A stretch of DNA of 64,000 nucleotides from positions 1 to 64,000 of the forward strand of contig JANSWW010000006.1 in NCBI GenBank assembly GCA_024743275.1. Direction: 5' to 3'. A program made the translations under genes and the position numbers. Positions 32,026-38,387 of this stretch are shown here, one piece after another (the stretch's first letter is position 1; every line of letters starts with the position of its first letter). The DNA comes from Alphaproteobacteria bacterium (GTDB lineage Bacteria; Pseudomonadota; Alphaproteobacteria; JANSWW01). The notes below the pieces were generated by a model, which saw nothing but the letters and a program-made list of their open reading frames with translations, had not been told where the DNA came from and ran no database searches.

Positions 32026-32579
32026 CGGGCGGCGTCCTCTTGCGCCGTCTGCGCCATTTTCTTTTCGAGATGGGGAACAAGACCGCCGTCCTGGACCATG
32101 GTCAGGAGCTGCGGCGGCAGCGCTTCGCAGGCATAGCGCTCGTCCCGCGTCTTGTTGACGATCAAGCCCTCGGCCGGGTCGACGGCGAGGTCGTCGGCAG
32201 CGCTGATCCGCCCGGCGTCGGCGCAGACCAGGGCGACGAGGCCCATATTGAGGGCGTTTCGGAAGAAGATCCCACCGAAGGATTTGGCGACCACGGCCCC
32301 GACGCCGAGATGCTTCAAGGCCTGGGCCGCCTGCTCCCGCGAGGAGCCGATACCGAAATTAAGCCCGCCGACGACGATGTCGCCCGGCGCCACCCCGGGC
32401 GCGAAGGTGGGATCCACCGCCTCCAGGCAGTGACGGGCGAGTTCCTCGAACGGTCCCTTCATGTAGAGGCCCGGCGCCAGGACATCGGTGTCGATGTCGT
32501 CACCGAAGACCCACGCCTTCCCGGTAGCCTTCCCGGTAGCCTTCCCGGTAGCCTTCCCGATCGTGCCCGCCGCACTCAT
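32022..32579 (-). CDS. aconitase-superfamily hydro-lyase, small subunit (LeuD/DmdB-like)
   Basis: The swivel domain is clear: GDDIDTDVLAPGLYMKG, GLNFGIGSSREQAAQALK, SFGGIFFRNALNMGLVAL. It is like isopropylmalate isomerase or 2,3-dimethylmalate dehydratase small subunits. The first 22 residues consist of repeated Gly-Lys-Ala-Thr from a 12-bp repeat and precede the normal start of the domain. The gene starts at an ATG overlapping the large-subunit stop. It joins the large subunit to form a [4Fe-4S] hydro-lyase in the pathway. Confidence 0.88.
   Translation of the reverse strand: MSAAGTIGKATGKATGKATGKAWVFGDDIDTDVLAPGLYMKGPFEELARHCLEAVDPTFAPGVAPGDIVVGGLNFGIGSSREQAAQALKHLGVGAVVAKSFGGIFFRNALNMGLVALVCADAGRISAADDLAVDPAEGLIVNKTRDERYACEALPPQLLTMVQDGGLVPHLEKKMAQTAQEDAAR
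32515..32562 (-). repeat. in-frame 12-bp minisatellite (4 units)
   Basis: Four contiguous 12-base units at 32515-32526, 32527-32538, 32539-32550 and 32551-32562 (the last diverged in three bases) encode Gly-Lys-Ala-Thr repeats at the N-terminus of the hydro-lyase small subunit. The unit keeps frame. The same operon carries a different 15-bp repeat in its flavoprotein gene. Confidence 0.85.
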
Positions 32580-35595: not shown

Positions 35596-35670
35596 GATTG
35601 GAAACCCTTCGGTAACCAATTTGCCGTACCCACGGTGGGCTTCAACTGGTCTTGTGGGAGGGGTTCAGGA

Positions 35671-36549
35671 ATGCCCGACGGAATGATCATCCCCGCGCCG
35701 GCGCCTGCCCTATGGTGCCGCCGAAGAGGAAGGAGAATGCTGGCGATCCTGTCGGCCGCCTGTCTCCTGGCCCTGGGCGCTCCCGCCCCCAAGAGCCATG
35801 CGGTGGAGTCGATCTCGATCCCGGGCACCGGCGCCAGCCAGACCCTGCTGAAAGCGATCGCCGAACATTTCAACGCGGAAAACCCGGACATCGTCGTCCA
35901 GATCCCGGAGTCCAGCGGGTCGACCGGTGGCATCAAGTCCGTCATGACCGGCAACTCGGTCCTGGGGCGGGTCAGCCGGGCGCTGTCCGACACCGAACGC
36001 GCGGGCGGGTTGGTGTCCGTCGAGTTCGCCCGCTCGCCGGTCGTTTTCATCAGTCATCCGAGCGTTTTCGGCATCGACTCGCTCACCATCGAGGAAATCC
36101 GGTCGATCTATTCCGGGGCGACCCGGCGGTGGAGCGACCTCGGCGGGCCGGAGCGGAAGATATACCCCATTTCCCGGGAAAGCGGATCGATCCACGGCGC
36201 CATCCTCGACCATATCCCGGACTTCGACAACGCGCCGGGCGCGCCGATCAAACGGGTCTTCAGCATTCTGGAGATCGTCGATCTGGTGGAGAGTTTCCCC
36301 TATACGATCGGCTTTTCGTCGATCAGCCTGGTGCAGCGCAGAAAAATCAACGTGCTCAATTTCAAAGGGATCGAGCCGAGTGAAGCCGCGGTGGTTTCCG
36401 GCCGCTATCCGCTCATCATTCCCTTCGCCCTGATCCATCGGCGGGACGACCTGCCGGAGGGGGCCAGGCGTTTCCTTGCCCATCTCAAGTCTCCCGAAGC
36501 CCAGGATATGATGCGGGCCCAGGGAGCCGTGCCCCTCGACGGACCATGA
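35671..36549 (+). CDS. PstS-like periplasmic binding protein (sensor partner)
   Basis: The ATG at 35671 follows GGGAGGGGTTCAGGA; a shorter start at the signal peptide (MLAILSAACLLALGAP) is possible. The mature part (292 residues in all) has the PstS-like pattern SISIPGTGASQTLLKAIAEH, ESSGSTGGIKSVMTGNS, LGRVSRALSDTE and a closing SPEAQDMMRAQGAVPL. These positions bind phosphate or other oxyanions in the family. There is no permease or ATPase gene. Its last codons overlap the next gene by 4 bases, so it should deliver its ligand to the kinase. Confidence 0.82.
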   Translation: MPDGMIIPAPAPALWCRRRGRRMLAILSAACLLALGAPAPKSHAVESISIPGTGASQTLLKAIAEHFNAENPDIVVQIPESSGSTGGIKSVMTGNSVLGRVSRALSDTERAGGLVSVEFARSPVVFISHPSVFGIDSLTIEEIRSIYSGATRRWSDLGGPERKIYPISRESGSIHGAILDHIPDFDNAPGAPIKRVFSILEIVDLVESFPYTIGFSSISLVQRRKINVLNFKGIEPSEAAVVSGRYPLIIPFALIHRRDDLPEGARRFLAHLKSPEAQDMMRAQGAVPLDGP

Positions 36550-38387
36550 GCGCTACCTTCGTCAGATTCCCGATCCTCTGGAAGGTGATTCTCGCTGTCT
36601 CGGCCATCGTCGTGCTGACCGGCGCCTTGATCACCAGCGCCGTGATCTTCCAGATGCGTCCGGTTCTGATCGAGACGGAACAGGAAACGCTCGTCGTCGA
36701 GGCGGAGATCCAGCGTGCACGCATCGAACGCGCCATGACCGTCATTGGACAGCAAATCACCGATGTGGTCACAAGCACCCATTTCCTCGACTACGCCCTC
36801 CAACACGAAGAACGCGATCTCAGCGCGCTGTTCTTGAGAAATGAGGAGGTCTTCCGCCGGGCCGCCTTCATCGGATCGGATTTCCGGGAGACTCTGGCCT
36901 ACGCCTACGGCCTGGAGGTTCTGGGCGAGGACCGTAGCGACGAGGAGGTCGTTCTCGACGCGGCCTGGCAACCGAACGCGGTTGCCTGGGGCGAGGTGCC
37001 TGTCGGGGATGAAGGAATTCGCTATCTTGCCGCGGCCATGGCGCAGATCAGCTTCTTCGACGAGTTCATCGGGGTCGGCTATTTCTGGATCCCCTTCGAA
37101 AAGGTCTTCGAGGCGGATCGTCTATTGATCCGGGACGACCGGCTCTCCCATGCCCTGATCTCCCCGGACGGAACCGTCCTCTACGCCTCCCGATGCTTCG
37201 AGGAACAAAACGTAGAGCGGCTCACTCGATCGACCGTCCGAAGCCTTGCGGCATTCTTGGCCGGGGCGGACGGCATCGGGCTCGGAGAGGTCGAACTATG
37301 CGGTGGGCCGGGCTTCGCATCGGTGACCGCGATCCCCGCCCTCAATTGGTACAATGTGGTCTTCATCTCGAAAGCCGATCTCTTCAAGCCGATCGACGAT
37401 TTCGTGGTCAGTCTGGTCGCTCTTCTGGGGGTCGTGCTGGCGGCCGCGATCCTTGCCTCATGGGTCATCGTGCGCCACAGCCTACGGCCGATCCGCGACT
37501 TGACGGCCGCATCGGAGACGCTCGCCAAAGGGACCTATCCCGATCCCATCCCCGTTGCGACCGGCGACGAGTTCGGGCAGCTCGCCCATTCCTTCAACGA
37601 GATGACCGACCGGCTCCAAACGACGCAGACATCGCTGAACGACGCCCTGGTCCGGGCGGAGAACGCGAACCAAGCCAAGTCCGAGTTCCTCGCCACCATG
37701 AGCCACGAACTGCGGACACCGCTCAACGCCATCCTCGGATTCAGCGAGATGCTTCGCAGCCAGATGTTCGGGCCGCTGGGCTCGGAGCGATACAAGGACT
37801 ATTCGAACGATATCCATGCCAGCGGGCATCATCTGCTCTCGCTGGTCGACGATGTCCTCGACATCGCCCGGATCGAGGCCGGGAAGCGGGAACTGCACCC
37901 CTCATCCGTCGCCGTGGCGGATCTTCTGAAAAGCTGTGTCCGATCCTTCGAGAAGACGGCGGAGGAAAAGGGGATCACACTCTCGCTCTCTCTTGAAGAC
38001 GACCTCCCGCCCCTGATGGCCGACGAGCGTGCCCTGATGCAGATCGTTCAGAATCTGGTGGTCAACGCGATCAAGTTCACGCAGGAGAACGGCACAATCC
38101 GCATCTCCGCCGAGGCGGCCGACGACTACGAAACGATCCTGGTGCAGGACGATGGGATCGGCATGGCCCGCGACGACATCGCCAGGGTGACGGAACCCTT
38201 CTCGCAATTGAATACGAACCCCTATCTGGCGCAGGACGGGATGGGACTGGGGCTGTCCATCGTGAAATCCCTGGTCGACTGCCATCATGGATTTCTGGAT
38301 ATCGCCAGTGAATTGGGCGAAGGCACCCGCATCGCCGTGCATCTTCCGATCAACCCCGCGGCCGGTTCCCAAACCGCCGCGTCTTAG
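36546..38387 (+). CDS. membrane sensor histidine kinase with HAMP domain
   Basis: The 613-residue kinase has a first membrane helix (11-35), a periplasmic region of about 250 residues (36-285), a second helix (286-309), a HAMP linker (306-358), a HisKA domain with H387 in [12 protein letters not shown], and an HATPase domain (about 495-605; [31 protein letters not shown]). The periplasmic region is a likely docking or sensing module for the co-encoded binding protein. No response regulator is adjacent, so the output is unknown. Confidence 0.9.

Follow-up and report, generated by a model that had tools for sequence, protein, structure and literature searches.

A PstS-like binding protein gene overlapping a HAMP histidine kinase gene in an alphaproteobacterial genome: a probable transporter-free sensing pair

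Analysis of a 64,000-nucleotide stretch of an alphaproteobacterial contig (the window, from whose first letter all positions are counted) showed a gene for a PstS-like solute-binding protein (SBP) followed on the same strand by a histidine kinase gene. The features of the pair were as follows:

35656..35663, + strand: possible ribosome-binding site GGGAGGGG, 7 bases 5' of the ATG at 35671 (read from sequence)
35671..36549, + strand: gene of the PstS-like SBP, 292 aa (PF12849, E 3.2e-23; nearest solved structures 4gd5 and 4q8r, E 4e-28 and 6e-27)
35671..35802, + strand: putative export signal, approximately residues 1-44 (RRRGRR, a hydrophobic stretch, then SHA|VE; read by eye)
36546..36549, + strand: overlap of SBP stop and kinase start (read from sequence)
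36546..38387, + strand: gene of the membrane histidine kinase, 613 aa, no receiver domain (Pfam matches and sequence boxes)
36585..36647, + strand: first transmembrane segment, residues 14-34 (hydropathy)
36648..37400, + strand: periplasmic sensor, residues 35-285, double-Cache-like (AlphaFold2, Foldseek, alignment to dCache_1 kinases)
37401..37457, + strand: second transmembrane segment, residues 286-304 (hydropathy)
37467..37619, + strand: HAMP, residues 308-358 (PF00672, E 3.8e-16)
37674..37883, + strand: HisKA with the phospho-acceptor His387 (PF00512, E 2.3e-21)
38022..38351, + strand: HATPase_c, residues 493-602 (PF02518, E 5e-26)

The SBP start at 35671 was favoured because the putative ribosome-binding site precedes that ATG, and a possible alternative start can be read at 35737 (MLAILSAACLLALG). 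The two genes are presumably co-transcribed. They were flanked by a tautomerase/SnoaL-like gene on one side and a convergent LysR gene on the other, and the further neighbours were mostly metabolic (UTRA regulator, dioxygenase, acetate kinase). Pfam matches and gene neighbourhood revealed no pst gene or transporter among the neighbouring genes, which also had no evident link to phosphorus, while a phoR-pstS-pstC-pstA-pstB-phoB set was found on a separate contig (C27) of the same genome from ORFs and matches. No match to a sigma-70-type promoter was found 5' of the pair, and terminator matches were at chance level. A preliminary description of this DNA had reported a four-base overlap of the two genes, a pair without permease or ATPase, a periplasmic kinase domain of about 250 residues and no adjacent response regulator. 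The present results agree: the shared bases are ATGA, no pst member lies among the neighbours, about 251 residues separate the two hydrophobic segments, and a receiver-domain search of the whole genome gave 37 matches, none of them on the 277-kb contig of the pair. Elsewhere in the window, a perfect 12-base repeat (3.8 copies, 32515-32559) was observed at the coding start of an aconitase-C-like gene, where the protein reads GKATGKATGKATGKA.

The SBP matched PF12849 with 83 bits (cut-off 27), and PF12974 (PhnD-like) was absent from its matches at E values up to 0.1. Both NCBIfam PstS models stayed below their cut-offs, with 102.5 of 206.6 bits for TIGR02136 and 14.5 of 205 bits for TIGR00975. 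The PF12849 match bears out the earlier designation of the protein as PstS-like; since the score is far under the TIGR02136 cut-off, "PstS-like" is the correct name and "PstS" is not.

The kinase boxes (H387, N, G1 and G2) were intact. The sensor on its sequence alone gave no Pfam domain, and no significant match in searches of 385 genomes of the class, plasmids and PDB sequences. The N-terminus of the kinase aligned end to end, with few gaps and 18-21% identity, with the dCache_1 sensors of the kinases of relatives, and a direct profile comparison was marginal (E 0.0019, probability 14%). An AlphaFold2 model of the sensor from a 19-row alignment had a mean pLDDT of 72.9 and a pTM of 0.61, and Foldseek with this model retrieved dCache domains of chemoreceptors and kinases, the best crystal structures at E about 2e-8. 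The model supports a dCache fold of the sensor without being independent proof of it, because the alignment rows included dCache proteins. An Arg-x-x-Trp-Tyr stretch that is common in the aligned chemoreceptors was absent from the kinase sensor. A single-sequence AlphaFold2 model of kinase residues 1-367 (mean pLDDT 48) was discarded.

In the 385 class genomes the SBP had 24 matches at E 1e-8 or better. Many of these directly precede a histidine kinase, and one precedes a HAMP protein whose end is MCP-like but degenerate. More relatives were obtained from an order-wide search starting at the genome with the MCP-like partner and from a phylum-wide profile search. A scan of the genome contigs gave one distant locus. 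The downstream partners, tagged automatically at E 1e-5 with a sample confirmed by Pfam, were histidine kinases with or without receiver domains, GGDEF/EAL proteins, MCP-like proteins and PstC, and the receptor partners span dCache domains, short sensor domains of about 100 residues, GGDEF/EAL and MCP-like types. The closest SBP relatives (36-38% identity) belong to one other family of the phylum and lie directly upstream of kinases (loci L144-L146 and L179). The partners at L144-L146, which were Pfam-scanned, are dCache_1-HAMP-HisKA-HATPase-receiver kinases, and the first half of the partner at L179 contains dCache_1 and HAMP. The genome set searched, in which the window genome is the sole member of its family and order, yielded no orthologue of the exact pair, and the recurrence of the pairing is that seen among relatives at 31-38% identity.

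Several loci had further features. In one sub-branch of the SBPs, five of five loci (L032:2578-8894, L134:6473-12217, L060:4884-8704, L086:1975-8797 and L087:2574-9215) adjoin an ethylbenzene-dehydrogenase-like gene (PF09459) and a 2Fe-2S oxidoreductase, and the receptor partner varies between MCP-like and GGDEF/EAL; the scan of L032 additionally showed PF01292. A Nitrospirae MAG (L031:6644-8557) encodes PF12849 (PstS-like) and PF12974 (phosphonate-binding) in tandem in one protein, directly before a HAMP-PAS-HisKA protein. At L044:7498-8990, a receptor-group SBP is followed by an ORF resembling only the end of a hybrid kinase, possibly because of truncation or a frameshift.

A maximum-likelihood tree of 67 PstS-like SBPs showed one branch (100/97) dividing 44 rows from 23. 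The side of 44 rows includes the window SBP and held 30 kinase, 8 GGDEF/EAL and 2 MCP-like partners, 4 untagged rows and no pstC, counts that are not frequencies because the profile used to sample the phylum consisted mostly of receptor-linked SBPs. All 14 pstC-linked rows were on the side of 23. A second tree omitted the long branches and included the sequences of 4gd5 and 1twy; these two solved PstS proteins joined the transport proteins in a group (100/97) that excluded the window SBP. As the tree is unrooted, the receptor side need not be a single clade. The transport side also holds a few receptor-linked rows (four with MCP partners and one with a kinase partner), so receptor linkage arose more than once. 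Separate PstS-like SBPs beside MCPs (L150, L152 and L163), with GCGIT at loop 1, lie on the transport side, which suggests an independent move to signalling. The preliminary description had named homologues consistently next to pstCAB as evidence that would count against a sensing pair; instead, the receptor-linked SBPs were separate from the pstC-linked ones. Its proposal of a transporter-free sensing pair is well supported, in that the nearest relatives are also SBP-kinase pairs and the tree parts receptor-linked from pstC-linked proteins.

The phosphate contacts published for SAR11 PstS are Ser32, Ser33, Thr34, Thr61, Ser83, Gly174 and Thr175, and Arg125 of the C. perfringens PstS 4Q8R is a phosphate ligand (PMC12421899). 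Arg125 of 4Q8R was carried over to Arg169 of the SBP by alignment, and the remaining contacts were placed tentatively by motif. The following positions were compared:

35824..35838, + strand: binding-loop 1, residues 52-56, GTGAS versus the transport-type GS[ST][TS] (alignment by partner class)
35977..35979, + strand: Arg103, invariant across transport and receptor types (alignment by partner class)
36175..36195, + strand: binding-loop 2, residues 169-175, RESGSIH versus REDGSGT of C. perfringens PstS, with Arg169 kept and Thr lost (alignments)

Gap placement leaves loop 2 of the SBP ambiguous by one residue, and the Thr is lost in either placement. At position 54, every one of the 14 pstC-linked proteins has S/T, and every one of the 44 receptor-side rows has G. 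Position 55 is T/S in 14/14 pstC-linked proteins, Asp in 9 of the 11 members of the branch of the window SBP and Ala in the window SBP itself. All 14 pstC-linked proteins have T at position 174, the window SBP has Ile, and 30 of the 33 members of the large receptor branch have Asp/Glu. With G54, A55 and I174/H175, the window SBP is missing the phosphate-site hydroxyls of loop 1 and of the SGT loop, and it retains Ser84, Ser102, Arg103 and Arg169. The receptor-linked SBPs in general have lost several phosphate-site hydroxyls and kept the two arginines and some serines; phosphate is therefore unlikely as their ligand. On these alignments, the simplest reading is a changed anion site at which tight phosphate binding is improbable, and the ligand of the SBP is probably small, anionic and not phosphate. 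Loss of pocket residues had been put forward in the preliminary description as an argument against the sensing pair. Phosphate-binding positions are indeed changed across the receptor side, an argument against phosphate and, by similarity, arsenate as ligands that leaves the sensing role untouched.

For the output of the kinase, its core scored 197 bits with the DivJ model, 203 with TorS and 197 with PnpS, and the closest kinase cores within the genome were 48-50% identical to it. A DivK-like regulator encoded in the genome shares 79% identity with a Caulobacter sequence. DivK/PleD as the output was tried and rejected, the DivJ score being no better than those of TorS and PnpS and the nearest genomic cores just 48-50% identical. 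No regulator is assignable because the three models score alike and the genomic cores stand at that identity; DivK is one candidate output, inseparable from the others.

The pair is quite likely a dedicated periplasmic sensing module, in which the SBP would capture a ligand and dock on the predicted dCache domain of the kinase, with the signal passing to a regulator encoded elsewhere. The secreted PstS-derived SBP, no longer tied to a transporter, would capture a small ligand, probably anionic and probably not phosphate, and in its bound (or unbound) form may dock on the double-Cache domain, by analogy with known SBP-stimulated receptors. The change would reach His387 by way of the second membrane helix and HAMP, and from there the phosphoryl signal would be expected to pass to a response regulator acting in trans. 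Docking, the direction of the response and the ligand class are likewise presumed.

An unlikely alternative is direct sensing by the predicted dCache domain of the kinase, with the SBP co-transcribed to fulfil some other function, e.g., scavenging. dCache domains usually bind small ligands directly, and the Foldseek matches of the sensor were mostly receptors of this kind. However, the Arg-x-x-Trp-Tyr stretch is missing, and one kind of SBP is paired with dCache, approximately 100-residue, GGDEF/EAL and MCP-like sensor types that are unrelated, so the SBP is the constant element. It is very improbable that the SBP works with a transporter from another locus and adjoins the kinase by chance, since the pairing with receptors is repeated and the receptor-linked proteins group separately in the tree, even though SBP genes distant from their transporters exist (PMC9602780).

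The changed pocket also bears on whether the pair senses phosphate or arsenate, with the SBP a working phosphate binder that reports to the kinase beside PhoR. The closest solved relatives of the SBP are phosphate-binding PstS proteins, Arg103, Ser84, Ser102 and Arg169 are kept, and PstS stimulates a chemoreceptor in Pseudomonas. This reading is nevertheless unlikely, as the window SBP lacks the hydroxyls at 54 and 55 and the SGT-loop Thr (with Gly at position 54 throughout the receptor side), the genome already has phoR-pstSCAB-phoB, and the neighbours have no evident phosphorus link.

Beyond the single locus, the dedicated sensing module may be one member of a larger set. It is somewhat favoured that a whole PstS-derived group left transport and now supplies kinases, c-di-GMP enzymes and chemoreceptor-like proteins with interchangeable periplasmic sensory subunits, the pocket being remodelled for a non-phosphate ligand. 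Several database matches are named "phosphate ABC transporter substrate-binding protein", and because databases commonly use that name, the group may hide as misannotated transport parts. If this reading is true, gene pairing reveals the input protein of many kinases, GGDEF/EAL proteins and MCP-like receptors lacking known signals, and the ligands of a few purified SBPs could give the signal for many receptors. SBP-stimulated receptors as such are known, and binding to receptor domains is reported for at least 13 SBP families (PMC9602780). The apparent novelty lies in a PstS-derived group that seems dedicated to this role and is common to several receptor classes. No paper on such a dedicated group or on a PstS-like partner of a kinase was found in a partial coverage of the literature, and a prior mention is possible.

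Compared with PstS of PstSCAB (TIGR02136, TIGR00975), the SBP has the same fold family (PF12849) but falls under the family cut-offs, stands apart in the tree, has no pst neighbours and has lost several phosphate-site residues. In Pseudomonas aeruginosa, PstS stimulates the chemoreceptor CtpL in phosphate chemotaxis (PMC4926252). There, a PstS-family protein likewise carries the signal to the periplasmic domain of a membrane receptor (as docking is proposed for the present pair), but that PstS has a second role with PstCAB and signals to a chemoreceptor, whereas here there is no transporter, the pocket is altered and the partner is a kinase of the same gene pair. The earlier remark that PstS-like proteins are less familiar as ligand presenters holds for kinases, but PstS-CtpL is a published case with a chemoreceptor. 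The oxyanion sensing systems AioX-AioS-AioR and ArrX/ArxX (PMC5908839) also have a stand-alone SBP adjoining a sensor kinase without a transporter, and AioX is thought to dock on AioS, a precedent for an SBP-stimulated receptor (PMC5908839). AioX, however, is PhnD-like (PF12974), and a regulator gene and the known target enzyme are encoded next to it, whereas the SBP of this pair belongs to PF12849 and neither is adjacent. LuxP/LuxQ and TorT/TorS also combine a periplasmic binding protein with a membrane kinase, but LuxP and TorT are described as differing in structure and phylogeny even from AioX (PMC5908839), and the TorS and LuxQ models match the kinase of the pair solely in the shared kinase core.
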